Below, piece by piece: positions 3,538-27,697 of a stretch of 51,059 nt of DNA. Source of the stretch: a virus; the IMG/VR virus record IMGVR_UViG_3300027801_000035, positions 1-51,059 of that record, one strand, 5' to 3'. The position numbers and the translations under genes were made by a program. The stretch's first letter is position 1, and every line of letters starts with the position of its first letter. The notes beneath the pieces are model-generated. The model saw nothing but the letters and a program-made list of their open reading frames with translations, had not been told where the DNA came from and did not search any database.

Positions 3538-5355
3538 ATGAAACAGTTTAACGTTACAGAATTAGATTTCGACGAAATTAAAAATGCAATTAAAGCATAT
3601 TACAAAAGGGCAGATTCTACCTTTAGTGATTTTGACTATGAAGGTTCTGGTCTTAATCTGATTTTAGATATACTTGCGTATAACACACACTATAATGCTA
3701 TCTTAGCTCACTTAGCCGCGAATGAAGGATTTATCGCGTCTGCGCAATTAAGAAAAAACGTAGTAGCCCGTGCAAAAACACTTGGATACATTCCTCATAG
3801 TGTAAGTGCTTCTCGCATATCTCTTGCACTCACGAATGTAGATCAAAGCATTTTATCTATTCCAACAGGAACTACTTTTACTACGACCGACACATTAAGT
3901 GGTACGACATATTCGTTTGTGAATATAAGTGAGGTTGGTACTCCTACTGTTCCATTTGAAGTTTTTCAAGGTACTTTGAAAACTCGTAGTTTTGTTTTTG
4001 ATAGCCAGGCAGAAAATTTAAAATTTGAAATACCTGATGAAAGCATAGATATAACTAAGCTTACAGTAAGTAGCTTTCCAAATGCTAATTCTACACAGCA
4101 AGAAACATACTCTAAGTTCTCAGAACTAGCAGGGCTTGATGGAGATTCTTTAGTGTATTTTATCAGCGAGAATCCCAATGGCAAATACGAAGTTAGCTTT
4201 GGAGATGATATCATTGGTTCAAAGCCTTCGGCTGGAAGTATAATTAAAATTCAATATTTAGTAACTGACGGAATAGACGCTAATGGCTTATCAGCATTTA
4301 CAACCACAGATTCTTTGTTTGATAGCGTTGCAAGTAAACCAATCATCACTCCATCGGGCACATCAACTGGTGGAGGTAGTAAAGAAACGATTGAAAGTAT
4401 TCGTGCCAATGCACCTTTAAATTATCTTGCACAAAATAGGGCAGTTACACCTGATGACTATGTAGCGCTCGTGCGAAATAATGTCAACGCCTCGGCAGTG
4501 TCTGTTTGGGGAGGTGAAGATAACGCTGAACCCGAGTACGGTAGCGTTTTTATATCAATAAAACCTACGAATGGTGAAACATTATCTAACGCAGAAAAGG
4601 CTGCGCTTCTACCGGTTTTAAATAGGAAAGGCGTTCTTACTGTAAAACCAAAAATAGTAGATCCATCTTATGTATACCTTTATTTTGATGTATTTACAAA
4701 ATTCAATTCTACTCTTACTGATGCTGGTGAAGCAGGTATAAGTTCATTAATAAGAAATGGTTTAACTACATACAATAGCGCTTATCTTTCAGACTTCGAA
4801 GGCGTGTTTAGAAATTCACAACTATTGACTTATCTTGTAAATTTAGACACATCGATTTTGAGCGCAACATTAAGATTAAAGGCGTATAAAAAATTCACAG
4901 CCACTACTCTTAACACCGGCCAATATAAAATTAATTTTAATTTCGCGTTAGAAGAACCTGGCGATTCAACGGCTTCGTCAATATCGACAAGTGCGTTTAC
5001 AATTAATAATATTAAACATTATTTAGCAGATGAGCCATCTACTACACCGCACTTAAGAAACATATATCGGTATATCATTGACACTAATACAAAAATAAAT
5101 ATTATGGAAAAACGTAATGTTGGAACTATAGACACTCTAAGAGGTATAGTTACAATTGATGATTTTGATATTGATGCTGATGCTGAAATTTCTATTTTTG
5201 TAAAACCTGCATCGGCCGATATAGCTCCTTCAAGGAATGAAATAATAGAAATTGACGCAGGTGCGCATACAGTTATTAGCTCACAAATAGATTCTATCGC
5301 AACAGCTGGATCAACTGGAGCGATTGGTTATACCACAATATCAAGAGACGCATAA
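3538..5355 (+). CDS. gp6: Baseplate wedge subunit gp6
   Basis: 605 residues (T4 gp6 is 660). The N terminus (FDEIKNAIKAYYKRADSTFS, then DFDYEGSGLNLILDILAYNTH) is strongly typical of gp6 in T4-like phages. Residues about 280-330 (NAPLNYLAQNRAVTPDDYVA, then an acidic G-rich turn) match the baseplate J-like core that gp6 shares with other contractile injection systems. gp6 dimers form the ring that ties the wedges together and changes shape on contraction. It starts one nucleotide after the gp25 stop, and its stop overlaps the gp7 start by one base (TAATG), so the genes are probably translationally coupled. Confidence 0.93.
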   Translation: MKQFNVTELDFDEIKNAIKAYYKRADSTFSDFDYEGSGLNLILDILAYNTHYNAILAHLAANEGFIASAQLRKNVVARAKTLGYIPHSVSASRISLALTNVDQSILSIPTGTTFTTTDTLSGTTYSFVNISEVGTPTVPFEVFQGTLKTRSFVFDSQAENLKFEIPDESIDITKLTVSSFPNANSTQQETYSKFSELAGLDGDSLVYFISENPNGKYEVSFGDDIIGSKPSAGSIIKIQYLVTDGIDANGLSAFTTTDSLFDSVASKPIITPSGTSTGGGSKETIESIRANAPLNYLAQNRAVTPDDYVALVRNNVNASAVSVWGGEDNAEPEYGSVFISIKPTNGETLSNAEKAALLPVLNRKGVLTVKPKIVDPSYVYLYFDVFTKFNSTLTDAGEAGISSLIRNGLTTYNSAYLSDFEGVFRNSQLLTYLVNLDTSILSATLRLKAYKKFTATTLNTGQYKINFNFALEEPGDSTASSISTSAFTINNIKHYLADEPSTTPHLRNIYRYIIDTNTKINIMEKRNVGTIDTLRGIVTIDDFDIDADAEISIFVKPASADIAPSRNEIIEIDAGAHTVISSQIDSIATAGSTGAIGYTTISRDA

Positions 5356-10120: not shown

Positions 10121-11677
10121 ATGGCAGCAATTATAACAGACGACTTTCGTAGAAATCAGGCTCGTTTATTGATAAACGACATTAAGGCATCAGTAGCTTT
10201 AAGTGCTCCAGACAGCGCGCTATTTCGTGATAACGCAAATTACCTAATCGGCTTAGGTAAAACGGATTCGTGGGGGAGTGATTCAGCCGGCAATTCAGAA
10301 ACATCTAGCGCGTTTATCGTAGATGCTCCTATTGGAACAGAGATTGAAAAGAAAGATGTTATTGATAATCTATTTACACTAAAGGAATTGGCAGTTGATA
10401 GTTGTTATCATATGATTCCAAAAAATGGTTGGGTTACAGGTAGAAAATACAAAGTTTATAATCACGCAGATAACGATTGCTTTTATGCAACTGGAGATCA
10501 GTATCCATGTTATGTTACACACGACAGTAAAGTTTACCTTTGCTTAAGTAATCACTCTTCACAAAGTAATGGATCCGCGGCTGATGAAATCGTAGCTGCT
10601 TCTTCGTCTTCGCCAGATACAAACAACACTTCAGATTTTGGTATTACCACCGCGGCCGTTGGAGCTGACGGTTATGTATGGGCCCACGTACAAACACTTC
10701 CTACTTCAGGCACTATTGCTAAGCTTATTACGTCACAGTTCGTACCCATACAAGATAACACATATTCAGCAGACGCTGATTCAAATAGTGGAGGATTTTT
10801 ATACGACATAGGTATTGTAAGTGGAGGATCAGGCTATAGCTCATCACCTACTGCAACAATTACTGCAATTAATGAAGATGGTGTAGAGATTACTGCGAAT
10901 CTTCCTTTTTTGGAAGTAAAACAATCTGGTGGTGTTATAACATCGATCAATCTTCGTAGACCTGGAATAAGTGGAGCTTCCGGTACAGCAGCGAATGCAG
11001 GTTCTAGAGGATATTGGAATCACACTGTAGGAAATAGGTTTAAAGATATTCTAAGCGCTACAATAACTATTACCGATAGCACTGGAACTGGAGCAAAAGC
11101 CATTGCTTCAATCACACCTCAACGTGGATTAGGTAATAACGCCATTGAAGTATTACCAACTTGGTTTGTAGGTGTTACTGTAGACTTTGTAAATAATGAA
11201 AGTAATGATTCGCCAATTCTAGATTTTAGACAAGTTTCCTTAATGAAAAGTGCTACTGTAACAGATGGTAATACAACTGGAACACACACCGCTTTGAAAA
11301 GTATTACGTTAAGCGGTACAATTACTACTGCAAGTTTAGGGGCACTTACAGCAGGAACAGTTTTAAAACAAGGTAACTCGAAATTCTATTTTAACAGATA
11401 CGATAGTACCACTAACAAGTTATTCTACCATCAGAATTCTGATGAAGAAGTAAATTATATAAAACCAATCGTCGGTACTACTGATGTAACTAGTTTAGAT
11501 ACTAGTACAACATACGCGACTGACGTCACTGCAGTAGGTGTAGGAGAATTCCGAAAGACCGAAACAGTAAATTCTCGAGAAGAGTATAATGGAGAAGTAA
11601 TATTCCATGAGAATAGAACTCCATTTACTCGGGGTGGAACACAGACAGAAGAAGTTAAATTGATTATACAACTTTAA
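10121..11677 (+). CDS. gp8: Baseplate wedge subunit gp8
   Basis: 518 residues versus 334 for T4 gp8. The N terminus (ITDDFRRNQARLLINDIKAS, then LFRDNANYLIGLGKTDSWGS) is the conserved gp8 start of T4-like phages. gp8 dimers bind gp7 and gp10 in the outer wedge. Residues about 220-290 contain an inserted GGSGYSSSPTATITAI module also seen in the 2009-residue neighbour, and this partly accounts for the extra length. The C terminus (EVIFHENRTPFTRGGTQTEE) matches the usual gp8 end. It follows gp7 after 68 bp with its own late promoter, and precedes the DUF4815 gene by 19 bp. Confidence 0.88.
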   Translation: MAAIITDDFRRNQARLLINDIKASVALSAPDSALFRDNANYLIGLGKTDSWGSDSAGNSETSSAFIVDAPIGTEIEKKDVIDNLFTLKELAVDSCYHMIPKNGWVTGRKYKVYNHADNDCFYATGDQYPCYVTHDSKVYLCLSNHSSQSNGSAADEIVAASSSSPDTNNTSDFGITTAAVGADGYVWAHVQTLPTSGTIAKLITSQFVPIQDNTYSADADSNSGGFLYDIGIVSGGSGYSSSPTATITAINEDGVEITANLPFLEVKQSGGVITSINLRRPGISGASGTAANAGSRGYWNHTVGNRFKDILSATITITDSTGTGAKAIASITPQRGLGNNAIEVLPTWFVGVTVDFVNNESNDSPILDFRQVSLMKSATVTDGNTTGTHTALKSITLSGTITTASLGALTAGTVLKQGNSKFYFNRYDSTTNKLFYHQNSDEEVNYIKPIVGTTDVTSLDTSTTYATDVTAVGVGEFRKTETVNSREEYNGEVIFHENRTPFTRGGTQTEEVKLIIQL

Positions 11678-11696: not shown

Positions 11697-14600
11697 ATGG
11701 CAATTACAACATATTCAAGTGCACCTTATAACGATGATTTTGCGTCAGCAGATAAAAACTATAGTCGAATACTTTTTAGACCAGGTCGTAGTTTACAGGT
11801 CAGAGAATTAAATCAATTACAATCCAATTTACAAGATCAAATAGATAAATTCGGTAGGCACGTTTTCAAAGATGGCGATCGTGTTTTAGATGGTTACACC
11901 ACATACGATGAAAATATTCGAAGCGTACCGATTACATTTGCCGGTAACGCTTCATTAACAGCCGCACAGCTCAATGCTTTAAAAGGAATTGAGATCTATA
12001 AGAATGGGGCCTCTACGCTTTCAGCTAAAATACTTGGTGCGGAATCGTTTATTGGCACTAATAATACTGTTTATTATAGGTTGTATTTAAAATACTTTGG
12101 TTCACAAGCCGCTTCTACTTCATCATTTTCGCAAGGCGATACGCTAAATTTAGGTGCATCCGTAAGTGCTGTTACACTTGGAACAAACACTACTGTTAGC
12201 ACTGATGCTACGTTTGCAACTGTTGTTACCTCCGCCAATGCTTTAGAATCTCCTGGGTATTATGGAGGGTTCTTTCAAGACGAAGGTGTGTTTTTTATCA
12301 AAGGATCTTTTGTACATACTGATTCTCAATCGGTCTTCTATATAAAAAGTGGTGAAACAGTAAAGTTGACGGGTAATTGTGTATTTGATATTGTAGAATC
12401 CGTTGTTACTTCAAAGGTAGACACAACTCTTTTAGATAACTCTTCTGGCACACCGAACTTTAATGCTCCTGGTGCAGATAGATATAAGGTTGAATTGACG
12501 CTAAAGTTTGTTACTTCAGATACTACAGGTGTAAAAGAAAATCAACAGCGTATTAATTTACTTGAGATAGATCAAGATCAAGTTGTTAAACCTGTACGTA
12601 CAGAATATTCCGAATTAGGAAAAGCTTTAGCGCAAAGAACTGCAGAAGAAAGCGGTTCATACGTGTTAAAACCATTTAAGATTGATGTTCGCGAATACCT
12701 AAATAACGAAGCAGGCAATAGAGGTAAGTATACAGACGATGAAATACTTAACAGTGGAGGTACACCTCTTATTACAGGCGTCTCGTCAACAGCAGAAGCT
12801 CAAACAGCAGGTGCAAAGAAATTTGTTGTAGGTGTCGAACCTTCAGTTGCATACGTTCAAGGCTACAGAGTTGAGCTTGAAGATAAGACCGAAGTAGTAG
12901 TAGAAAAGGGTAGAGAAGGCGCTGATGTAGCTACTTCTACTGGATATAAAATACAAGCAGTTAGACCTTCTCTATTTATTGAAGGTTGCATCAGCGATGG
13001 CCATACCGATGGTGTCGCAACGGCGGATATTCAAGCTCTTGACTTTTCACCTGATGACAAATATTACTTTTATGATAAGGCCACTGTCGCTCCTGTAGGC
13101 TGGTGCAGAATTCATTCAATAGAAGCTACAGGTGTTCTTAGCGTTGATTATTCAAATGCGAATAGCACTACAAATCCAGACGCGTCCCAGGCAATGGAGA
13201 GAATCTATATATATGACTTTCATCAAACTGGATTCACCGCTGCGGGTGAAAGCGGATTAAATGCCAGTGAAGTTTTAAGAAAAATGGAGTTTTTGAGTCT
13301 AAGACCTAATTCCACTGCACAAGCGGACTACGACGATGATAACAAATTTGGTTTAGAAAACCGTTCAGGATTTACTTTCATGGGTGATGGCGTCGAAGAT
13401 AAAAGAACTACTTTAGTGTATGATTTGCCTGCAGATGGTGTTAATAGCGTAGATTCAACTACACTTAAATATGCTGTCCAAAAAACAATGGACGTTACTA
13501 CAAGTTCCACAGTTGGCTCACAGGGACGAGTAACACACACTCTTTCAAGCGGCAAATTCTTTAGTACTAACGCTGAAGACTATACTATAATGTTATATGG
13601 CAAGGGCTGGGGGGCCGCCGCGGCCAATGGCGGTTCACCATATATTCATAACGTTGTAATTTCAAATGGCGGATTGACAATAACGGCTTTCGTTAGATTA
13701 TCTGACGGGAAAGACATTACTGTCGCGATTCCCGGAACCCTTTTTGGCCCTGTTGAATCTTCAGGTGTAAAAATAAAGACTCAGACGACTGGCCAAACTA
13801 CTACTACTACAAAGGCGCTCTATAAAGGTCAGCAGCTTCAATTAGGACATGTAGATGTTTACGCAATAGAATCTATTACACACGCCGGTAATCCTGCAGG
13901 TGCTTCAGTTGATATTAAATCAGACTTTATTTTAGACGATGGCCAAAGAGATTCTCACTACACATATGGAAATGCTTCTTATAAAGGTAATTTAAATTTA
14001 GCGGCGGGCACAGGTAATATTGTAATAACGTATTCGTACTATGCTCATACTGGAAGCGGAGCGTGTTTTACTAGAAATTCTTATACAAGTGATGGTACTA
14101 CTTTAATAGCATTAGAAGCTGTTCCTACTTTTGGAGATGGAAAGTTGACAGACACTCTTGACTTTCGTCATAACATACTAGAAACTGGCGATGCTTCAAA
14201 TATTTTTCCAAATACAATTATTAATGTTGACTTTGAGCATTTTCTTCCAAGACTCGACGCGGTAGTCTTAACACAACTAGGAGATGTAAAAGTAATTACC
14301 GGCGCTGCCGCCAAAAATCCAACACTACCAACAATTCCAAATGATTCTTTGCAATTGTACACTATCAATAAACCTGGTTACGTATATAATTTAAACGATT
14401 TAGACATTGAAGCTCATTCGCACGAAAGATACACGATGAAAGACATCGAAGGTATCGACGATCGAGTAAAACGTTTAGAGTACTATACCGCTTTAACTGA
14501 TCTAGAAAGAGATGCATCAGAAAGAGATTTATCAGATCAGTTTGGAACGCGCCACAAGTCAGGTATTTTCACAGATGGATTTATAGGTCATGGCGCGGGA

Positions 14601-17600
14601 GATTCGACTAACTCAGCGTATAAAGTAGGAATTAACCGTGAAGAAAATTCAGCAAGGCCTTTGTATCTATCTGAAAATAGTAGATGGAGTTATATTAAGG
14701 ACGGATCTACTACATTACAAAGTACAGCAACAGCTACTGTTACGGAGTGGAATGGAGAGACGATAGATTCTACTACAGTACATTCTGGAAAAAGAGCGAA
14801 CGCAATCACCTTAGACTTTATTGAAAAAACAGTCGTTAACCAACCTTTCGCTAGCGAACACATGAGTGTAAATCCTTATGATGTTGCAACTTGGAGTGGA
14901 ACACTTGAGGTTTCTCCTTCTAGCGATGAGTGGAAAGATACAACACACGTTCCTGATATTGTTCAAAACGTCGAAGGTAACAATGACGCTTTACTAAATC
15001 AAATCGCGAATAACCCTAACGTTCTTGGTACAGAGTGGAATGAATGGTCAACAAACTGGAGAGGCCGCAGATGGCGCAGACGCAGTTGGTGGAGAGGCAG
15101 AGGTAGAGGCCGAAACCGCCGTTGGAGCAGACGCCGCAGGTGGTGGACATCACGCGCTACTCAGGTAAGATCTGGCATTCAAACTGAACTTACCGCAAAC
15201 TTTAGAAAAGAAGTTATAGATGAAGAAGTTTTAGATATAAGTTTTATCCCTTTTATTCGTTCTCGCAAAGTACATTTCCAAGCAAGATTGCTTAAACCTC
15301 ATACCAAGTTCTATCTTTTCTTTGATGACGTTAACATAACAAGTTATGCGAAAGATGGTGTAAGCTTTACCACGTTCGGAGGAGGAGTTGCATCAAACGG
15401 TGGAACAGACGTTGTAAGATATGATGGTCAAACTAGTATCAGCGGTGCTGATGGAAGCATTGTCTCCGACGGTGCAGGTGATATTAATGGTTGGTTTGTA
15501 GTACCTAATAATGATATACTAAGATTTAGAACTGGAACACGCTCTGTTCGCTTAACTGATAGCGCGCTTAATAATAAAACATTAGAATTGTCCGCTGCTG
15601 AAACTTCTTATCACGCCAAAGGTGTATTAGAAACAAAACAACGTACAGTACTTTCAACAAGAGAACTTTCTCTTACAAGAACAAGAGTCTCAGATAGAAG
15701 AAACATCGTGGTTCGCCGAAGTAGAGTTTGGAGAGATCCGATATCCCAAACATTCATGATTGGTAACGAGTCGACTGGCCTATTTATATCTTCAATTGAT
15801 ATATTTTTCCAAGCAGTCGATCCAGAAATTCCAATCGAGTTAAGTATTGTTACTGTTGAAAATGGAATACCTACACAAAATACTGTTCCATTTTCAAAGG
15901 TGATTAAGAAAAATGGCGATACGGGTGTCGCGATTGATGCAGATACCGCGCAAGTTGCAACGAACTTTATGTTCGATACACCGATATATTTAGAAGCAGG
16001 TATAGAATATGCGGTATTACTAATTTCAAATAGTGCAAGATGGAGAACCTGGGTAGCAAGAATTGGAGGAACAAATAAAGTTCCTTCTGGAGTAAACGGT
16101 GAAAAGATTACAAAGAACGTAAATCTAGGTGTATTGCTTAAAAGCCAAAACGCTTCTACTTGGACTCCTGATCAAAATGCCGATTTAAAATTTAAATTGA
16201 ATAGGGCTGACTTTAAATCAGATGCATCGCAAACAGCTTTATTCACTGGTGTATGTCCTGCAAGAGGTGATGTTACTTATATCGATGTGACTACGCCATC
16301 AAGTGGTTATCTTAATGGTCCTCCTGTAGTAACCATCGATGCTCCTGGTAGTGGAACCAATAACGCCACTGCAAAAGCGTATGTTTCTGAAGGCGGCGTG
16401 CTCGAGTATATTGAAGTTACAAATGGAGGAAGCGGTTATACTATAGCGGATGCGAATGCCGTAACTTTAAGTGCTCCTGAAGGAATAGCAATCACAACTG
16501 GACAAGTTGCATTTGCTGGCAATGGAATTATAAGTCTTTTTGGTACTATTACAGATATAACTACTGGCACGACCGCTGCAGGTGCTTCGGGGCAGCTCGA
16601 TCCATTAGCGTTTTACAAAAAATCTGCGATCTCTAGAATAAAAAATGGACAAGCCTTTGTGTATAACAATGGTGGAGGCACGAGTATTGGAGGTATGGCT
16701 GATGGGTCTACGTATTATGCGAAATGTACATACGGCCATGGAGAAAGTGTAGCAGATGGTTTAGAGTTTAGTCATCAGTTCGCGATATACTCAAATGAAG
16801 AGTTAACTACTCGTGTAATTTTAACTGGAGCCGGTAACAATCTGCAAAGTATTACACCAACTGCTGCAGCGACTGCAACTGCAAAATTAAACACTTGGAA
16901 AGGCGCAACGTTCTTTAACATCATAGAAGAATTAAAACTTCCTGAAGCTTCTACAGAATATACGATGACAGTTAGAGGAGACGATGCGAGTACTGGTGGA
17001 GGAGTTAATGAAACATTAGCGTATCCAATTACTCCTAACGAAACGTTTTACTCAGATATTCAAGTAGAGCACGATTCTAGTAGTGGAAGTTCAGGAAGTT
17101 ACTTAGATACTTTAAAACTAGAAAGTGTTCTTTCCACTACTGATTCGAAAATTAGTCCATTGATTGACTTAGATAGAATATCTTTAGTTTCATTTGACAA
17201 TTTAGTAAATGCTTCTACAGAGTTTGAACATATTACAGATGAAGGTCAATCGTTATCTCGATATATTAGTAAACGTATTAAGCTCGATGCTTTAGCAGAT
17301 GGCGTTAATATCATATTTGACTTAATGAAACCTGATGAATCTACTGATGTTAAAGTTTATGTCAAAATACGTGGTCCTCGTACAGAACAACAGAATCCAG
17401 TTGATCAGACTATAACAGGAACTGATTTAACAACTGGTGGTTGGGATCAACTTGGGTGGAAAGAGGTATCCAAAGATGGTGGAGAAGAAGCTCCGGTTTC
17501 TCAAGACTTTTCTTTTACAGAAGTCCAGTATTCTTCTCAATTCCAGGGTAATGATTTTAACGCTTCTGATTTAGCTGATGTTGATTACCAAACTATTAGC

Positions 17601-17726
17601 CAATACGCAGCAAACAATTTAATAACAGAAAGATTTAACGAAGTTGCGGTGAAGATTGTATTCACTTCAAGCAATCCTGCATTTGCTCCTGAAATTAAAA
17701 ACTTACGAGTAATAACATCATTATAA
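11697..17726 (+). CDS. Very large DUF4815-type baseplate/tail structural protein
   Basis: 2009 residues. The start (SSAPYNDDFASADKNYSRIL, then FRPGRSLQVRELNQLQSNLQ) is the DUF4815 signature found in a structural protein next to gp8 in marine T4-like phages, in the place of T4 gp9/gp10. Its exact place in the baseplate is unproven. DUF4815 appears to fill about the first 700 residues. A conserved-looking stretch (SFIPFIRSRKVHFQARLLKP) follows residue 1180, and GSGY repeats lie near 1545-1600. Residues 1122-1153 form an abrupt Trp/Arg/Gly-rich segment (RRWRRRSWWRGRGRGR) unlike the rest of this acidic, Ser/Thr-rich protein. The +1 frame over the same bases is open and Ala/Gly/Glu-rich. A GC-richer patch lies around 13590-13800. 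No promoter is seen; it probably shares the gp8 transcript. Confidence 0.8.
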   Translation: MAITTYSSAPYNDDFASADKNYSRILFRPGRSLQVRELNQLQSNLQDQIDKFGRHVFKDGDRVLDGYTTYDENIRSVPITFAGNASLTAAQLNALKGIEIYKNGASTLSAKILGAESFIGTNNTVYYRLYLKYFGSQAASTSSFSQGDTLNLGASVSAVTLGTNTTVSTDATFATVVTSANALESPGYYGGFFQDEGVFFIKGSFVHTDSQSVFYIKSGETVKLTGNCVFDIVESVVTSKVDTTLLDNSSGTPNFNAPGADRYKVELTLKFVTSDTTGVKENQQRINLLEIDQDQVVKPVRTEYSELGKALAQRTAEESGSYVLKPFKIDVREYLNNEAGNRGKYTDDEILNSGGTPLITGVSSTAEAQTAGAKKFVVGVEPSVAYVQGYRVELEDKTEVVVEKGREGADVATSTGYKIQAVRPSLFIEGCISDGHTDGVATADIQALDFSPDDKYYFYDKATVAPVGWCRIHSIEATGVLSVDYSNANSTTNPDASQAMERIYIYDFHQTGFTAAGESGLNASEVLRKMEFLSLRPNSTAQADYDDDNKFGLENRSGFTFMGDGVEDKRTTLVYDLPADGVNSVDSTTLKYAVQKTMDVTTSSTVGSQGRVTHTLSSGKFFSTNAEDYTIMLYGKGWGAAAANGGSPYIHNVVISNGGLTITAFVRLSDGKDITVAIPGTLFGPVESSGVKIKTQTTGQTTTTTKALYKGQQLQLGHVDVYAIESITHAGNPAGASVDIKSDFILDDGQRDSHYTYGNASYKGNLNLAAGTGNIVITYSYYAHTGSGACFTRNSYTSDGTTLIALEAVPTFGDGKLTDTLDFRHNILETGDASNIFPNTIINVDFEHFLPRLDAVVLTQLGDVKVITGAAAKNPTLPTIPNDSLQLYTINKPGYVYNLNDLDIEAHSHERYTMKDIEGIDDRVKRLEYYTALTDLERDASERDLSDQFGTRHKSGIFTDGFIGHGAGDSTNSAYKVGINREENSARPLYLSENSRWSYIKDGSTTLQSTATATVTEWNGETIDSTTVHSGKRANAITLDFIEKTVVNQPFASEHMSVNPYDVATWSGTLEVSPSSDEWKDTTHVPDIVQNVEGNNDALLNQIANNPNVLGTEWNEWSTNWRGRRWRRRSWWRGRGRGRNRRWSRRRRWWTSRATQVRSGIQTELTANFRKEVIDEEVLDISFIPFIRSRKVHFQARLLKPHTKFYLFFDDVNITSYAKDGVSFTTFGGGVASNGGTDVVRYDGQTSISGADGSIVSDGAGDINGWFVVPNNDILRFRTGTRSVRLTDSALNNKTLELSAAETSYHAKGVLETKQRTVLSTRELSLTRTRVSDRRNIVVRRSRVWRDPISQTFMIGNESTGLFISSIDIFFQAVDPEIPIELSIVTVENGIPTQNTVPFSKVIKKNGDTGVAIDADTAQVATNFMFDTPIYLEAGIEYAVLLISNSARWRTWVARIGGTNKVPSGVNGEKITKNVNLGVLLKSQNASTWTPDQNADLKFKLNRADFKSDASQTALFTGVCPARGDVTYIDVTTPSSGYLNGPPVVTIDAPGSGTNNATAKAYVSEGGVLEYIEVTNGGSGYTIADANAVTLSAPEGIAITTGQVAFAGNGIISLFGTITDITTGTTAAGASGQLDPLAFYKKSAISRIKNGQAFVYNNGGGTSIGGMADGSTYYAKCTYGHGESVADGLEFSHQFAIYSNEELTTRVILTGAGNNLQSITPTAAATATAKLNTWKGATFFNIIEELKLPEASTEYTMTVRGDDASTGGGVNETLAYPITPNETFYSDIQVEHDSSSGSSGSYLDTLKLESVLSTTDSKISPLIDLDRISLVSFDNLVNASTEFEHITDEGQSLSRYISKRIKLDALADGVNIIFDLMKPDESTDVKVYVKIRGPRTEQQNPVDQTITGTDLTTGGWDQLGWKEVSKDGGEEAPVSQDFSFTEVQYSSQFQGNDFNASDLADVDYQTISQYAANNLITERFNEVAVKIVFTSSNPAFAPEIKNLRVITSL

Positions 17727-17928: not shown

Positions 17929-18666
17929 ATGAGCGATATACAAAATTTTAATGATTTCAATAACGTTACAGAGCCGACTGAGGCTGGAACTAATGCTGCT
18001 GGTGTTTTACTTAGCGATACATTCGAAAATTGGCGAGAAAAGACTAATGGTATTATAGCTGAGATCAACGTTTTGGCAACGCAGCTTAACACCCAAGTGG
18101 ACGTTCCATTGAGTGGAATAGTTCAAGCATCTGGTAAAAAGCTTATAGGTAATGTAACAGGATCGACCGCGGATTTAGCAGAAATTAGTATTATTGCAGA
18201 GTCAGATAAAATCATTAGTAATGATAACGATACAACCATTCCTACATCAGCTGCTGTTCACGATTTTCAAGAAAAACGTTATATATCAGGGCGTGTTTCC
18301 TCAAGTGGTGTTGCTACTTCTCTCCATGGCATCTCTTCTGTCCGCGTGGGTACAGGGGCGTACAATATTACCGTCAACGGCAGTCACCAATTACCTGCTG
18401 GACAACGCTATACAGTTGTTGCACAACTAGCAATAGACTTGGCCCCGTATGGCGCCACTCAAAGCAGGATTAACAATCAATTCCAGATTCAACTTTTTCA
18501 GATAGATGATATTAGCGGTGATCCAGCATACAGAGCTGAAATATTTGAATTAGAATCTTACGAGGGCCACGGTGGTGGTAATGACGCCAACAGCGCCTCC
18601 TTTGTCAGTGTTAATCGCAGAGACTTTCCTTTTACTTTAATTGGTTTACCCGCCACTGATCAATAG
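17929..18666 (+). CDS. Putative tail fibre or baseplate appendage protein
   Basis: 245 residues. The N-terminal part (TNAAGVLLSDTFENWREKTN, then GIIAEINVLATQLN) is a helical start I associate with short structural proteins in marine T4-like tails. The middle (LAEISIIAESDKIISNDNDT) resembles fibre shaft sequence. The C-terminal 125 residues (from about RVSSSGVATSLHGISSVRVG) are beta-rich and use more GC-rich codons than the N-terminal half, suggesting an exchanged receptor-facing domain. It lies between baseplate and fibre genes, so a minor appendage is plausible. No enzymatic motif is visible. Confidence 0.55.
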   Translation: MSDIQNFNDFNNVTEPTEAGTNAAGVLLSDTFENWREKTNGIIAEINVLATQLNTQVDVPLSGIVQASGKKLIGNVTGSTADLAEISIIAESDKIISNDNDTTIPTSAAVHDFQEKRYISGRVSSSGVATSLHGISSVRVGTGAYNITVNGSHQLPAGQRYTVVAQLAIDLAPYGATQSRINNQFQIQLFQIDDISGDPAYRAEIFELESYEGHGGGNDANSASFVSVNRRDFPFTLIGLPATDQ

Positions 18667-18681
18667 CTGCGCGTAAAGTAA

Positions 18682-18689
18682 TATAAATA
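18682..18689 (+). promoter_or_regulatory. Late promoter for the 151-residue gene (leaderless type)
   Basis: Exact TATAAATA with ATG after 6 nt (ATAATA). No Shine-Dalgarno sequence is possible in that space. Confidence 0.75.
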
Positions 18690-18695
18690 ATAATA

Positions 18696-19151
18696 ATGGC
18701 AATAAATTATTATTTACGATGCGAAAAAGTTGGAGGAGGATTATGCTTCGTATCAACTATAGAAAAGTTACCACTAAGCGATAAATGTAAGTTGGTAGAT
18801 ATTGAAGATAAGACAACAAAGCTTTACATAAAATACGTAGATTGTTGTTTCATAAACAAAAAGGGTGAAGTATACTTTGACGCAGTCAAAGTGCTAAGTT
18901 TGCGTTTAGAGGAGTTTAAGAGAAATTTGGATAGAACATTATCTACGCTTAGAAAATTTTTAGTTGAAGCACACGCTTTAAATAATAACGATGTTGTTAA
19001 AGAAATTACTGAAGATATAAATGATTTAGTTAATTGTTTAAATCGTGATTTTTCTGCTATTGACAATATCGAGGATTTAGACAATCTTTCTATTCCTGAA
19101 TTGGCGTTTGATCATTATACACACTATATGAATAAACTATACAATGTATAA
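18696..19151 (+). CDS. Hypothetical protein, mixed beta N terminus and helical C terminus
   Basis: 151 residues, not recognised. The first 65 residues look beta-rich with several cysteines (C9, C17, C27 and a CC pair near 50). Residues 65-130 form charged helices (LRLEEFKRNLDRTLSTLRKF, then EITEDINDLVNCLNRDFSAI). A late promoter directly precedes it, so it is made late with the tail proteins. It overlaps the next gene by 8 bp, which suggests co-translation with the oxygenase-like protein. It could be a structural, assembly or modifying protein; nothing in the sequence decides. Confidence 0.6.
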   Translation: MAINYYLRCEKVGGGLCFVSTIEKLPLSDKCKLVDIEDKTTKLYIKYVDCCFINKKGEVYFDAVKVLSLRLEEFKRNLDRTLSTLRKFLVEAHALNNNDVVKEITEDINDLVNCLNRDFSAIDNIEDLDNLSIPELAFDHYTHYMNKLYNV

Positions 19152-19674
19152 GTCTTACGATATTGGCAAAAGAGGTGTTCCGCTCTTAGTAGATGGTGAT
19201 TTACTAAAAACCAAATTTGAAAAGTTAGCAACTAAAGAATACTACAACGCGCTTTCTGCTAATGAAAGAGATGGCAAAATTGACCCGTATTCTGCTCTCG
19301 GTGATTCAGTAAAGATGCGGCCAATTCACAGCTCAGATCAAAAGGAAATAAGCAGATTACTAAAAAGGTGTTTTCCAAATATCACATTTAGATTGTCTGG
19401 CTTTTTCATATACGGACCTGGCGATTATATGAGTGAACATACAAACTCAAACGATCCAGGAAATACGATGTACATCACATACGCGACTGGCGAATCAAGT
19501 TTTTCATATCGGTTTGACCCTTCTGAAGAATTCGTTAAAACATCAGATATGAAAAACGATATCACCTTAAGAACATTTAGTCTTACAGGTGAAGGTCCTT
19601 TTACACACCACAAAGTTGATTGCGAAAGTGGATATAGGCTTTCAATCGGCATGAGATATGTTCAAATCAAATGA
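19144..19674 (+). CDS. 2-oxoglutarate/Fe(II) oxygenase-like protein with HxN in place of HxD
   Basis: 176 residues. The C-terminal 90 residues have the layout of the double-stranded beta-helix oxygenases: H99-T-N101 after GPGDYMSE, then TMYITYATGESSF, then H155/H156, then R165-L-S167 in the usual place for binding the 2-oxoglutarate carboxylate. In the family the first motif is normally H-x-D/E. Here it is H-T-N, so iron binding may be altered or lost. Phage members near tail genes are often guessed to hydroxylate virion proteins, but no substrate is known here. It overlaps both the 18696 gene (8 bp) and the ParB-like gene (17 bp), forming a tight three-gene cassette under a late promoter. 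Fold assignment is by motif reading only. Confidence 0.55.
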   Translation: MYKSYDIGKRGVPLLVDGDLLKTKFEKLATKEYYNALSANERDGKIDPYSALGDSVKMRPIHSSDQKEISRLLKRCFPNITFRLSGFFIYGPGDYMSEHTNSNDPGNTMYITYATGESSFSYRFDPSEEFVKTSDMKNDITLRTFSLTGEGPFTHHKVDCESGYRLSIGMRYVQIK

Positions 19675-20044
19675 AGTATTTAGTGATCACTGCATTTTCA
19701 AAAATGGTGATATCGTAGGTTGGGTTGATGTTACTTCATTAATGTTTACGCTCCGCGCGTTAAACAAAATAGAATACCAGAAAAGTTATACTATTAAAGA
19801 TACTACGTTGAAAAACGATGACTTTAAAAAAGCCACATTAGAGTACTACGAAAAACATGGTATATGCGATAGACCGATTGTTGTAACAACAAAAAACTTT
19901 TGTTTAGATGGCAGACACCGAGTGCACGCTAGTCGTTTGAAAGGCAAACTGCATATTAAAGCATATATAGTTCCTCATAATCTAATAGAAACTTTTTATA
20001 AAGAAATCACGCAAGTAGTAAATCGCAGGAGTATAAATAGATAA
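19658..20044 (+). CDS. Small ParB-like domain protein
   Basis: 128 residues. Residues 71-100 (RPIVVTTKNFCLDGRHRVHA) carry the ParB/sulfiredoxin-fold signature, with D84-G-R-H-R88 corresponding to the nucleotide-binding loop of ParB-like NTPase/nuclease domains. There is no helix-turn-helix or centromere-binding region, so a partition role is unlikely. Stand-alone ParB-like domains occur in many phages with unclear function. It overlaps the oxygenase-like gene by 17 bp, and its 3' end contains the late promoter of the next gene. The unusual late expression beside fibre genes suggests a modifying or assembly role, which is speculative. Confidence 0.6.
   Translation: MFKSNEVFSDHCIFKNGDIVGWVDVTSLMFTLRALNKIEYQKSYTIKDTTLKNDDFKKATLEYYEKHGICDRPIVVTTKNFCLDGRHRVHASRLKGKLHIKAYIVPHNLIETFYKEITQVVNRRSINR
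20032..20039 (+). promoter_or_regulatory. Late promoter for the 115-residue structural gene (leaderless type)
   Basis: Exact TATAAATA inside the last codons of the ParB-like gene; ATG follows after 6 nt (GATAAC). Confidence 0.75.
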
Positions 20045-23300: not shown

Positions 23301-25610
23301 GATAATAATATGTTGAATATTGATTCTGCTGGAATTGATGTTGCAGGAACAGTTAATACTACTGGAAATATAACAGCACCTCGACTAATTACAAACGAAA
23401 TACAGTGTGTAGGTACTACAACAGGAACAGCACAGCCAATAACATACGACGCTAAAGAACATCGCTTCAGAGATTACGATGAAACACCTAGTAACTTAAT
23501 GGTGATTAAGAAAGTTGATGGTGTACCAATTGGTAAAGTTGGTATCAATCACAACAATCCAGTTTCTGCATTACATGTTGTAGGCGGACACACGGCAGGT
23601 GGTGGTATTCCAAATGAAGCATTACGAGTTGTAGGCTCTGGTTTATTCACTTCAACTGATGAGATTGCTTTGGTTGTTGCACGAGATACAAACAACACTG
23701 TAAGCACTAATGGTGGCCACGTCCTAAAGTTAAAACAGGATGTTAGTACTGCATCTACTTCCAATAAAGAAGAATTGAATATTGGATTTGTTGGTAGTGG
23801 CGGTGGAGGAATATATACGAACTCAACCTCACTCGCAGCATACATAGACGTCCAAAACTCTAAAAGTTTCGAAATTGCAGTTGGCGGAAAGAAAGCACTT
23901 TCGTTACACCCAACAGTTGGGTACGCAACATTTAGTAATGGCGCATTGTTTAATGGTGATATTGCTATAACAGATAAAATTATACATAGTGGTGATTCAG
24001 GCACTGCTTTAAGATTCCCATCTAACGATATATTTACAATTGAAACCGGTGGAGCTGAAAGAGTAAGAGTGGGTGCCTCGGGTCTTGTCACAATAGCTGG
24101 TGACTTACAGGTTAATGGAATAACCACAACAGTTAACCAAACTAACCTTGATGTGTCAGATAACATTATTGGACTTAATCGAGGTTCATCGACAAATGCA
24201 AATGACTCAGGTATTATTATTGAAAGAGGAAGTACTGGAGACAACGCAGCAATACTTTGGGATGAATCTGAAGATTACTTTCACGTAGGAACTACAGCAT
24301 CAGATGCAAGCTCAACTGGTAATATTGCGGTTGCAACAGGAAATTTATATGCTACAATAGCAAAAGCAGCTCAACCAAATATTACAAGTGTTGGTACATT
24401 AACAGGTTTAAGTGTAAGTGGTAATGTTGGTGTAGGAGTTACTGCTCCTACTAGTAAATTACATGTAAAAAATACAAGTGCAGGCAATGTTCTTCGTCAA
24501 CTTCGATTACACAACGATTCGACCACTGCTGGTACCGGTGCAGGTATAGCATTTACTAATAGCACATCTGAAACTTTCGTTGGCGCGTCTATAGATTCTG
24601 TTAGAACTACTTCTACTGCAAATGGTAATCTAGTATTCTCTACTCGAGCAGATGCCACTGCGAATGATGATAATGCCGTCGTTGAAAGAATGCGTATTAA
24701 CCCTACAGGCGAAGTTGGTATTGGTAAGACTGCTACTGCAGGAGTTGAATTGGATGTTAACGGTGATATTGCAGCAAGTGGAAATATTACAGGAACTCTT
24801 GGAACTGCAGCTCAAACCGCTATTACAAGCGTTGGTACATTGACAGGTTTAACAGTTAGCGGAGCGGTAACTATTGATTCACAAACACTAACGGTTGATT
24901 CAACTAATAACAGAGTTGGTGTAGGAACTAACGCTCCAGGAGCACCATTACACATAAGAAAAAGTGCGGGGGGTGGTACTCTCATCCGTCAGCTTCGACT
25001 AACTAATGACACTAACGCGCAAGGCACTGGTTCAGGTATAATATTTAATAATGCTGATAACGGCGGGGAGGGTCATGGTGATTTTATCAATGCAGCCATA
25101 GATTCTATCGATACTGAATCAGGACTGAGAAGTGGTAATCTAGTATTCTCTACTCGACCCAATAGTACTGGTGGTGATGCTGCTGTTATTGAAAGAATGC
25201 GTATTAACGCTACAGGCGAAGTTGGTATTGGTAAAACTGCTACTACTGGAGTTGAATTGGATGTTAACGGTGATATTGCAGCAAGTGGTACTGTTAATGC
25301 TAAAGGGTTCTCATTAAACGCAAATACATTTACAGTTGTATCGACTACCTCTACACTCGCAGCATCTACAAATGGATTAACAGTAATACTGCAAAATACT
25401 GGTCCTATTACTATCACACTTCCAACATTAGCAGCAGGCCACGTAACAACATTTATTTCAGAAACCAACAATGACGTTACATTCGTTGCTGATACAGGAA
25501 TTACAGTCAATTCATTTAATGGGGCCAATACTACTGCAGGCATATTTGCTCAATGCCAAGTAATATATAAAACAACTGCAATCGCATTCCTTGGAGGTAA
25601 TCTAGTATGA
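20397..25610 (+). CDS. Long tail fibre with tandem 50-residue repeats
   Basis: 1737 residues. Residues about 40-490 form the shaft with six copies of a 50-residue unit built on NNPHSVTKAQVGLGNVENKS, SATIRSEIVDGDIPSTI and RDSELSAHTSLT. A DNTSDINKPxSTATQTAL segment brackets the array at both ends. A different insert (TDPTFTGNPQSNAAPTSNDH onwards) splits copies 2 and 3. The middle is beta-rich. The C-terminal 430 residues hold two copies of a long module ending in ERMRINPTGEVGIGKTATAG, then VELDVNGDIAASG, as in fibres that continue into a tip. No peptidase_S74 chaperone tail is visible. It overlaps the next gene by 4 bp (ATGA). It is the best candidate for the main long fibre. Confidence 0.82.
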   Translation: MATIKSTVTTENRINANVSPPSKIVPKNVVLHDVTAASVGLENVDNTSDINKPVSTATQTALDLKANQSTTYTKTEVDAEVTAASTSASLALTAHGDLTNNPHSVTATQIGLGNVENKSAATIIGEIVDSDIPSTITRDSELSAHTSLTNNPHSVTKTQVSLGNVTNESKTTMFTDPTFTGNPQSNAAPTSNDHLTNKTYVDTQVAGVVDSAPEALDTLNELAAALGDDANFATTTATSIGEKLAKASNLSDLADDATARTNLGLGSVDNKSSATIRGEIVDGDIPSTIARDSELTAHTSLTDNPHSVTKTQVGLGNVEDKSSATIRTEIVDSNIPSTITRDSELNAHTSLTNNPHSVTKAQVGLGNVENKSSATIRSEIVDGDIPSTITRDSELSAHTSLTNNPHSVTKAHVGLPNVEDKSAATIIGEIVDGDIPSTIARDSELSAHTSLTNNPHSVTKAQVGLTNVDNTSDINKPISTATQTALAGKQDTLTFGRLNTNAVKIDNTSAAANPGDICKFAGNGIMPYTFLDIKYDLGLPVIEATLLDKANKASPEFTGNVGIGLSGASSEALDMNGHFRLKISSANRTAGKSVALIKSDDKTAANLRVEGPVAVTHDLFKNSGVDNGFADNSNHFHTIQKINRITQQSGSGTANERVQEQYYAIENNNLKNSKAAFWNWHRVSKEVSSTAVALTNLVGWNVSGIQDSSNRTATSQVSFPTGGAEATTFTFDTAGNNPFTLNDVLQIAISIDFEGAIVAATLFAKVTAVSGATATVVLYGGNYKSTDEVADGNSQTALTNNFTVEKIDTTQYIALSSGFGIDVLSDSTRTTTTDTFSLTFASAHSLQLNDTVTIITDSSGGFQAAEVAFVKEVTSTTAAKFVYGRVFEPESRLALGDLGSGQVVGVLKGTLDGLHRFTAGDQLMHFNADNEGRYKSYQIGPGSEVGADCIAIGKNVYNKDASTIKIGYDNNMLNIDSAGIDVAGTVNTTGNITAPRLITNEIQCVGTTTGTAQPITYDAKEHRFRDYDETPSNLMVIKKVDGVPIGKVGINHNNPVSALHVVGGHTAGGGIPNEALRVVGSGLFTSTDEIALVVARDTNNTVSTNGGHVLKLKQDVSTASTSNKEELNIGFVGSGGGGIYTNSTSLAAYIDVQNSKSFEIAVGGKKALSLHPTVGYATFSNGALFNGDIAITDKIIHSGDSGTALRFPSNDIFTIETGGAERVRVGASGLVTIAGDLQVNGITTTVNQTNLDVSDNIIGLNRGSSTNANDSGIIIERGSTGDNAAILWDESEDYFHVGTTASDASSTGNIAVATGNLYATIAKAAQPNITSVGTLTGLSVSGNVGVGVTAPTSKLHVKNTSAGNVLRQLRLHNDSTTAGTGAGIAFTNSTSETFVGASIDSVRTTSTANGNLVFSTRADATANDDNAVVERMRINPTGEVGIGKTATAGVELDVNGDIAASGNITGTLGTAAQTAITSVGTLTGLTVSGAVTIDSQTLTVDSTNNRVGVGTNAPGAPLHIRKSAGGGTLIRQLRLTNDTNAQGTGSGIIFNNADNGGEGHGDFINAAIDSIDTESGLRSGNLVFSTRPNSTGGDAAVIERMRINATGEVGIGKTATTGVELDVNGDIAASGTVNAKGFSLNANTFTVVSTTSTLAASTNGLTVILQNTGPITITLPTLAAGHVTTFISETNNDVTFVADTGITVNSFNGANTTAGIFAQCQVIYKTTAIAFLGGNLV
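20514..21860 (+). repeat. Tandem 150-bp repeats in the fibre gene
   Basis: Copies are spaced exactly 150 bp where adjacent. The shared core CCTCATAGTGT starts near 20700, 20850, 21309, 21459, 21609 and 21759. Flanking halves of a GTAGATAATAC-type segment occur near 20526 and 21798. The later four copies are nearly identical at DNA level, which favours recombination and copy-number change. Confidence 0.85.
24684..25288 (+). repeat. Duplicated segment near the fibre 3' end
   Basis: Positions 24684-24781 and 25191-25288 are almost identical over 98 bp (starting GAAAGAATGCGTATTAAC, ending GCAGCAAGTGG). A shorter identical stretch, GGTAATCTAGTATTCTC, precedes each. This marks a duplicated protein module of about 165 residues. 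Confidence 0.8.
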
Positions 25611-27697
25611 GTTTTTTAGCATCAATAAGCCCAGGTAACATAAAAGGAAAACTCCCAAGTGATTGGAAGTTTGATGACGATTTAAGATGGATACGCCCTA
25701 CAGAATGGCTTAGCTTAGGCACAAGTACGTATGATGGTACAGTACCAGAAAAAATTATTGGCTTAGTCGCGGTGTATCCAGATGATGTGCACAATTATGT
25801 TTCTTTTCATTTAGATACGAATGATAGTTCGAATATTAGTGTAAACTGGGGTGATGGCACTACTGAATCCTTAGCGCATAACACCACTCATTACCATGAG
25901 TATGATTATGATTCAATTACATCTGATACAAGCACAGCGAAGTCTACGCTTTTTAGGGGTTACAAACAAGTAAAGTTTGAAGTTACATTAACTGGCTCTG
26001 CCAAGTTCAGCCAAATATTATTTGATGTCGATGGACCATTTACTACACATACTAGTAGACTATATAGAAGAGGTGCAAACATCTTAGACTTATTCATAAG
26101 CTCGAGCAATGCAACTAATCACGAAATATCAGATGATAGGCCTTTAAACATCTGCGAACAAATAGAAATAAGAAATACATCTTCGAACAGATTATCCAAT
26201 CCGCAGAAGCTGTATTCTGGTGCACAAGCATTAGAATCGATTCCGTTTGTACCGTATATTTATAATAGTGGTTATAGGGATTATGTTTATGCATTTTATT
26301 ACTGTCAAAATCTAACACAGTTACCTGATGATTTTGCTGACCCCGATAGGTATTGGTTTAGAAATCCTAGTCGCACGCAAGAAGCTTTCCGAGCTTGTTA
26401 CAGCTTGCGATATATACCAAATGGTTTGTTCGGTACAACTACCTGGGCGTCAAATTCGAGCCTTTATTATATGTTTTACGATTGTCGTAAACTAAAGAAT
26501 ATACCTTATCTTCCAATGAGAACAGGCGCAGGCACAGATACAAGATGCGATTATATATTTGGTAATTGCTTAGAGTTAAGAGCAATTCCTCAAGGATTCT
26601 CAGTTGAAAGAGCTAATACAAATGGTATTGATAGACTATTTTATGGTTGCAGAAAATGTACTGATTGGTCAGCACTTTATGATGGTGGAGTAGCTATATT
26701 GGATAATCTTAATATATCAGCTGGTTCAAGTTTTAACATGTCACAGACCTTCGGGAACTTAGATCAATTATTAGAGTTTCCGTATGTTGGCAATTTTTCA
26801 AAAGCTACACAAGAAGCTTATGCTGTTTTTCTTAGTAATGGCCACATAAAAAGATTTAATTCTCAGTATACACATTTAGATTTTAGTAGAGTCGATGGTC
26901 TTAAAAATTTATTTCAGGACTGTTATAATCTCCAAGAAATACCAGAAATACGAGTTCGTTCATTGACAAGAATTAATGCTTTTTACTATACGTTCTATAG
27001 TTGTCAAAACCTTCGTAATATCAAAATGACTGGTATGATAGCTGGACCTAGTGATGGTGAATACTACAGGTGTTTTTATAATTGTAGAACATTAGCAGTT
27101 ATTGACGGAATTGACTTTTCGTTTGCTACTGAAACTAGCGATTATTATCAAATGTTTCACGTTTGTCGTGACATAAGTGCTATAAAATTTCCTGGCACAT
27201 TTAGAGCTGGTTACGCAAGTCCAAGAATAAACGTAACTGTCGCAAATCACGCTGATATAAGTGGTGAATATCATATAACCGCCGATGGTACTGGCTATGA
27301 TCAAGCAAGTGGCAATGGTGAATTAAGAGTTGCTGAAAGTGGTGGTAATTATACATGGACAATTCGAGATAGTTCTGATAATACACCAAACGAAAGCTCT
27401 TCGGCATCTTCAAGCACTCAATTCACACCTCACTCAGCAGATTGGTCTGGAGCAACAAATGCGGTTACATTCTCAGAAGTTGAAACAGGATTTAAGTATA
27501 CAGTAACTGGTGGTAGTGGTGATGGATTAAGGTATAATCCTATTAACCGTGCAAACATGTTAGAAATTTTTAATCAATTGGTCACAGTATCACATAGCGC
27601 TACGCTTGACCTAAGAAATAATTCATACACCGCAGATCTAACAGATGCAGATAAGGCCATTGCAACAAATAAAGGTTGGACGTTAACATTAGCGTAA
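25607..27697 (+). CDS. Tail adhesin with PKD-like N-terminal segment and BspA-type leucine-rich repeats
   Basis: 696 residues. The N terminus (SPGNIKGKLPSDWKFDDDLR) follows the fibre gene with a 4-bp ATGA overlap. Residues about 78-95 (ISVNWGDGTTES) resemble a PKD-type turn. Residues about 225-535 contain roughly eleven repeats of the form F-Y-x-C-x-x-L-x-x-I-P (YYCQNLTQLP, YDCRKLKNIP, GNCLELRAIP, QDCYNLQEIP, YSCQNLRNIK), nine of them with the cysteine. This is the DUF285/BspA-like repeat known from bacterial surface adhesins. Residues about 548-615 form a GxY...W...W module like one in gp7. The C-terminal part (NMLEIFNQLVTVSHSATLDL) resembles the end of BspA-like proteins. Its likely role is receptor recognition at or near the fibre tip. 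Confidence 0.72.
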   Translation: MSFLASISPGNIKGKLPSDWKFDDDLRWIRPTEWLSLGTSTYDGTVPEKIIGLVAVYPDDVHNYVSFHLDTNDSSNISVNWGDGTTESLAHNTTHYHEYDYDSITSDTSTAKSTLFRGYKQVKFEVTLTGSAKFSQILFDVDGPFTTHTSRLYRRGANILDLFISSSNATNHEISDDRPLNICEQIEIRNTSSNRLSNPQKLYSGAQALESIPFVPYIYNSGYRDYVYAFYYCQNLTQLPDDFADPDRYWFRNPSRTQEAFRACYSLRYIPNGLFGTTTWASNSSLYYMFYDCRKLKNIPYLPMRTGAGTDTRCDYIFGNCLELRAIPQGFSVERANTNGIDRLFYGCRKCTDWSALYDGGVAILDNLNISAGSSFNMSQTFGNLDQLLEFPYVGNFSKATQEAYAVFLSNGHIKRFNSQYTHLDFSRVDGLKNLFQDCYNLQEIPEIRVRSLTRINAFYYTFYSCQNLRNIKMTGMIAGPSDGEYYRCFYNCRTLAVIDGIDFSFATETSDYYQMFHVCRDISAIKFPGTFRAGYASPRINVTVANHADISGEYHITADGTGYDQASGNGELRVAESGGNYTWTIRDSSDNTPNESSSASSSTQFTPHSADWSGATNAVTFSEVETGFKYTVTGGSGDGLRYNPINRANMLEIFNQLVTVSHSATLDLRNNSYTADLTDADKAIATNKGWTLTLA

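Follow-up and report, generated by a model that had tools for sequence, protein, structure and literature searches.

The predicted 2009-residue baseplate protein encoded in the window, the whole 51,059-nucleotide stretch analysed here (viral record IMGVR_UViG_3300027801_000035), carries two cationic loops that we interpret overall as one hypervariable contact site whose likeliest target is the anionic host envelope, an interpretation in which our confidence is evenly balanced. Its parts differ in strength. Loop 1 is almost certainly a real loop that is read natively and owes nothing to sequencing error; that the two loops together form a contact site selected for charge is likely; and the host envelope as the partner falls slightly short of an even call, contact with another virion protein being its main rival.

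The gene and its surroundings point to the baseplate:

3538..5355, + strand: neighbouring baseplate wedge subunit (phrog_219, E=7.8e-137)
10121..11677, + strand: neighbouring gp8-like baseplate wedge subunit (phrog_438, E=2.3e-46)
11697..17726, + strand: ORF of 2009 aa, DUF4815/VrlC-like baseplate protein (Pfam PF16075, phrog_358, PDB 9euf)

The ORF product belongs to Pfam PF16075 (DUF4815), with E=3e-53 and a score of 181.5 bits (cut-off 30), and matches phrog_358 with E=0. The best Pfam stretch covers residues 776-1085, and loop 1 lies just beyond this domain. Homologues are annotated as VrlC, virion structural protein or baseplate wedge tail fibre connector, among others, and sequence comparison found a single relative of solved structure, the DUF4815 chain in the baseplate of phi812 (PDB 9euf, E=1.4e-38). 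The gene adjoins the gp8-like wedge gene, as expected for a DUF4815/VrlC-like context, with wedge genes upstream (phrog_219, a Baseplate_wedge match and phrog_438) and fibre-like genes, a terminase and a portal downstream. Judged by these matches, the product is a predicted baseplate component, and the phage is T4-like with a contractile tail; no phage isolates related at the DNA level were found. Between the DUF4815 gene and a fibre-assembly-like gene, four ORFs (17929-20044) have no PHROG or accepted Pfam match, with one sub-threshold DNA_primase_lrg match among them. The fibre region also holds a 696-aa ORF (25607-27697) containing leucine-rich repeats of the BspA type (Pfam LRR_5, E=1.9e-7), whose predicted product possibly binds the host surface.

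Loop 1 is set between two conserved flanks:

14943..15059, + strand: conserved acidic left flank, residues 1083-1121, ending in GTEWNEWSTNW
15060..15155, + strand: Trp/Arg-rich loop 1, residues 1122-1153; its full variable extent runs up to residue 1159 (nt 15173)
15174..15416, + strand: conserved right flank, residues 1160-1240, with the beta strands that follow in the Ig-like part (strands taken from the models)

Within the ORF, positions 15060-15155 translate as RGRRWRRRSWWRGRGRGRNRRWSRRRRWWTSR. The abrupt Trp/Arg enrichment pointed out in the first-pass annotation is evident, with 23 Arg and Trp among the 32 residues of codons 1122-1153, against 6 in the richest 32-residue stretch found elsewhere when 32 other plus-strand ORFs were scanned. 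Counted over 38 residues, the loop has 6 Trp and a net charge of +18, thus displaying the high Arg/Trp content and positive charge of membrane-active Trp/Arg peptides; it contains RG repeats, and RGG box repeats are absent. The description of its codons as like those of the rest of the phage is not quite accurate, the GC content being 66% in the loop DNA and 39% in the gene. Among 20 near relatives, the left flank (protein window starting at residue 1083) has a mean net charge of -6.3 and a mean pairwise identity of 71%. For the right flank, dN/dS relative to the homologue L013 is 0.134.

The segment had also been read as a possible product of two compensating indels that switched a linker from acidic to cationic, and an open frame lies over it on the same strand:

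14998..15168, + strand: open +1 run of 56 codons, a by-product of Arg/Trp/Gly codons according to synonymous recodings, and no gene

This frame is indeed acidic and open from 14998 to 15168, with a TAA at 15166, and its run of 56 codons is the longest of the gene in that frame. However, its openness is forced: when the loop residues were recoded synonymously following the codon usage of the gene, the +1 frame was open in 20,000 of 20,000 recodings, because Arg, Gly and Trp codons shifted by one base mostly begin with G and hence yield no stop. Acidity in this frame is likewise shared by most other Trp/Arg loops, with +1 net charges of -8 in the window and in L091, -9 in L124, -6 in L125, -14 in L126, -9 in L170, -7 in L171 and -5 in L146; the exception is L137 (+5), where Lys takes the place of Arg. 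Segments rich in Arg, Trp and Gly thus necessarily carry an open and mostly acidic +1 frame, and caution is warranted, since finding one does not indicate a frameshift. The short repeats thought to favour slippage are not in excess either, with 2 repeated 8-mers in the loop versus 3.0 expected under synonymous recoding; none of the 9 loops tested exceeded this synonymous null. With repeats at or below this null, we rejected an origin by slippage.

Comparison with homologues leads to the same answer. A second contig (L002/L012) encodes a protein identical to that of the window, and relatives from another metagenome (L003/L013/L090), 89-93% identical depending on the stretch, retain the segment, which is four residues longer there and altered in its interior. 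Persistence of the Trp/Arg stretch in relatives was the outcome that the first-pass annotation itself had named as telling against a double frameshift, and the stretch is kept in this approximately 91%-identical relative; moreover, each of the 19 distinct near loops is positively charged when read in the native frame. Of 88 loci, 66 had both flanks identifiable (the 22 lacking one or both being left out of the count), and a single same-frame ORF spans them in all 66. Compensating indels or an assembly error are therefore scarcely credible as the source of the cationic loop. A real overlapping peptide or programmed-frameshift product, which the length of the +1 run might suggest, is just as implausible: the openness is dictated by the codons, the loop head of the closest relative is exact in frame 0 while its +1 residues differ, and +1 stops occur inside the loop of near relatives, L016, L019 and L038 among them. 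On the grounds of forced openness, these stops and frame 0 conservation, an overlapping +1 gene was rejected. The other half of the earlier proposal, a real membrane- or nucleic-acid-interacting patch, holds insofar as loop 1 is a real cationic and aromatic patch under selection in its native frame.

Codon comparison of the nearest pair shows purifying selection on loop 1. Between the window and L013, dN/dS in loop 1 is 0.179, and the first 12 codons contain no nonsynonymous and three synonymous changes. In the larger sample of the window plus 80 fetched loci, 58 distinct loop 1 sequences range from 23 to 84 aa, of which 54 are net positive, 2 neutral and 2 negative. All 19 distinct near loops (flank identity of at least 0.5) have a net charge of +4 or more, reaching +20, and 13 of them contain Trp. 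When 1,919 protein windows of 38 residues were compared over the 20 near relatives, the one on loop 1 had the highest mean charge (+9.6) and an identity in the lowest 2%; the next separate charge peak (+6.05, window start 1309) covers loop 2. A tree of the flanks groups the window with L013, L037 and L038 (support 97/99), with loop charges of +12 to +20. These alignments show loop 1 to be hypervariable in length and sequence, yet always strongly cationic in the clade of the window. All counts refer to fetched loci ranked by likeness to the query (the best 80 of 127, corresponding to 77 distinct loci, the best 80 of 302 and the best 80 of 593), with contigs recurring between scans; one relative set left out L001, L002, L003, L012 and L069, as well as L082, which is too short.

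Trp/Arg loops are also present in distant lineages with flank identities of 0.36-0.44, for example VGRSRWGWGRRWGRRWGRRGFWWRR in L125, RFRWRRRGGFRGRGRASSWRRFGRRGRRWRQW in L171 and RRWGWGRGRWWSGNRWW in L146, while L169, 60% identical to L146, is without one. Using a rule of at least 3 Trp and a net charge of at least +5, which was fixed after the data were seen, loop 1 is Trp/Arg-rich in 12 of 141 distinct relatives; on a FastTree tree from which both loops were excluded, this takes no fewer than 8 changes. The set of 141 was obtained by dropping 9 of 150 distinct relatives with flank identity below 0.30, and 5 of 194 rows (L133, L082, L011, L086 and L087) were dropped from the wider relative table. 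Mapped on this tree, Trp/Arg-richness is shown to have been gained or lost repeatedly at one site. Since loop 1 is net negative in 8 and neutral in 7 of the 150 distinct relatives, positive charge is not required family-wide. The acidic loops in distant relatives contain stops when read in either other frame, and a frameshift origin was rejected for them. A Trp/Arg-rich loop is absent from all 7 isolates tallied (8 isolate loci were fetched, L011 being dropped by the filter), and no known-host isolate with such a loop was found, the listed isolates nearest L171 and L038 being only 33-38% identical. Two further loop types were seen: L137 has a Trp/Lys version of loop 1, SGINKKWWSWSWLKKKKITGIRD, in which Lys replaces Arg, and L045 and L054 have a long loop 1 sharing the element RNC(N/R)CGHRNTL, whose residues resemble those of a small patch that binds metal or forms disulphides.

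The second charge peak corresponds to a second loop:

15675..15731, + strand: loop 2, second cationic loop, residues 1327-1345, TRTRVSDRRNIVVRRSRVW

Loop 2 is positioned just ahead of a conserved RDP motif and is Trp/Arg-rich there in L124-L126; L133 was cut from the comparison. Over a wider range, it is Trp/Arg-rich or cationic in L124-L126, L170 and L171, and in L138, L201, L188 and L186 it is acidic, with a mildly to clearly acidic loop 1 (-1 to -7). The charges of the two loops correlate with rho 0.40 over 150 distinct pairs, and a loop 2 charge of at least +4 is found in 11 of the 13 relatives whose loop 1 reaches at least +10, versus 15 of the 137 others. Using independent contrasts on the 141 rows, the correlation is r=0.326, a value attained by none of 108 control windows (highest 0.199) and by none of 20,000 shuffled contrasts. 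When ranked, the contrasts correlate only weakly (rho 0.16, borderline at P=0.06; P=0.056, 0.037 and 0.007 with minimum branches of 0.01, 0.03 and 0.1), which means that the coupling depends for the most part on some large changes. An independent-pairs test on the Trp/Arg labels had too few informative pairs, with 1-2 agreeing, none disagreeing and 5-6 showing no difference, and in L146 and L137 the change is confined to loop 1, which is Trp-rich without a Trp/Arg loop 2. Across the aligned relatives, the charge of loop 2 thus tends to change with that of loop 1, above control windows, and from this coupling both loops probably form one contact site. An electrostatic latch between loop 1 and its own acidic flank (residues 1083-1118) was rejected: the raw rho of -0.64 disappears with independent contrasts (r=+0.10).

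The coupling also bears on whether loop 1 is a tolerated low-complexity spacer that merely joins two strands, with Arg, Trp and Gly codons drifting in by GC-rich expansion. The great variation (23-84 aa among 58 distinct loops), the GC content far above that of the gene and the unequal Trp/Arg-richness of the sister relatives L019 and L016 would all fit such a spacer, but drift would hardly keep 19 of 19 near loops at +4 or more, give the dN/dS of the closest pair or couple the charges of two loops, and the DNA repeats are without excess. We regard this explanation as improbable.

Structure prediction covered the part of the protein around the loops. Residues 830-1520 and 1062-1325 were modelled with intermediate quality, with mean pLDDT values of 68.3 and 66.9 and pTM values of 0.39 and 0.51, respectively. 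Loop 1 is the least confident part of both models, with pLDDT values of about 32-37 in the larger model and 37-45 in the smaller; this shows low confidence of the prediction and is not proof of disorder. Foldseek ranks the phi812 chain (9euf) first with E=4.9e-20, establishing a fold relation. VIA comparison with this chain gives Z-scores of 22.3-23.9, but with an rmsd of 14.8-19.0 Å over 232-361 residues of a multidomain model, which means that the domains match and their arrangement does not. The smaller model superimposes on phi812 residues 590-777 with a Z-score of 10.3 and 3.2 Å over 113 residues. Immunoglobulin-like and similar sandwich folds rank lower, at the background level (Z of 7.6 or less), and no Foldseek or VIA match besides phi812 was counted as functional evidence. 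In the larger model, loop 1 directly precedes and loop 2 ends long predicted strands (model residues 322-354 and 470-511). Pairing of these two strands would bring loops 1 and 2 together, and loop 1 is probably a flexible insertion in the Ig-like part.

For a site of this kind, a combination of Arg and Trp is characteristic of peptides binding to LPS and to membrane interfaces, and the hosts of the nearest isolates are Gram-negative marine bacteria; for both reasons, the host envelope appears the likeliest partner. Loops 1 and 2 would be exposed side by side on the baseplate surface, with many copies per baseplate facing the host. They could bind anionic envelope components, e.g. LPS phosphate or lipid A, through Arg-phosphate contacts, while Trp would insert at the membrane interface, and such binding may help firm attachment.

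A serious though lesser possibility is that the loops hold the virion together by binding a lineage-specific acidic phage partner, for instance a neighbouring wedge, the root of a tail fibre or one of the downstream proteins, their variability then reflecting partner swapping. The lineages with both loops acidic (L138, L201 and L188) fit a coevolving protein better than a fixed anionic surface, and the gene adjoins a gp8-like wedge gene and lies upstream of fibre-like genes. These acidic lineages suggest that the partner differs between phages, and a virion protein thus stays a strong rival, although the one internal partner tested, the acidic flank of the protein itself, shows no covariation once relatedness is removed. 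Far less probable is nucleic-acid binding of the RGG or Arg-rich type, e.g. holding DNA during ejection. The RGRGRG and Arg runs resemble RGG motifs, but strong Trp content is not typical of these motifs, the protein is of a baseplate family, and acidic versions occur at the same site.

Returning to the envelope, a bolder and rather unlikely extension is that the paired loops act, on some marine T4-like phages, as tethered Trp/Arg antimicrobial-like peptides. On landing, they would enter the outer membrane by way of lipid A and either anchor the particle or weaken the membrane before the tail tube reaches it; this property would have evolved several times at one site, with other lineages acidic there for another surface. 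The two-loop site of this VrlC/DUF4815 protein offers a concrete, testable place where baseplate and envelope might meet, a hypervariable site of coupled charge that turns repeatedly into antimicrobial-peptide-like sequence.

Tritrpticin and indolicidin are Trp/Arg- or Trp/Lys-rich antimicrobial peptides, and together with (KW)n they have a residue make-up like that of loop 1. An antibacterial action of the (KW)n Lys-Trp repeats is reported in PMC3549253. All three are free peptides, in contrast to loop 1, an internal loop of a virion protein for which such an activity is hypothetical. The DUF4815/VrlC family is itself already known; for its Trp/Arg loops, no earlier description was found in the largely open-access literature searched on DUF4815, VrlC and the phi812 baseplate. 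The DUF4815 protein of Staphylococcus phage phi812 (ORF65; PDB 9euf before and 9eui/9euj after contraction) is homologous by sequence and fold, but this phage has a Gram-positive host, unlike the Gram-negative hosts of the nearest isolates, and its loop region is not Trp/Arg-rich in the alignment. According to PMC7029224, VrlC is an integral part of the two-layered baseplate, and VrlC/DUF4815 is among the few structural proteins common to all pelagimyophages and cyanomyophages compared there. The VrlC proteins of the pelagimyophages and cyanomyophages HTVC008M, Mosig and S-CAM22 belong to the same family and occupy the same place after gp8, whereas their loops are mildly cationic with 0-1 Trp and that of the window is Trp/Arg-rich.
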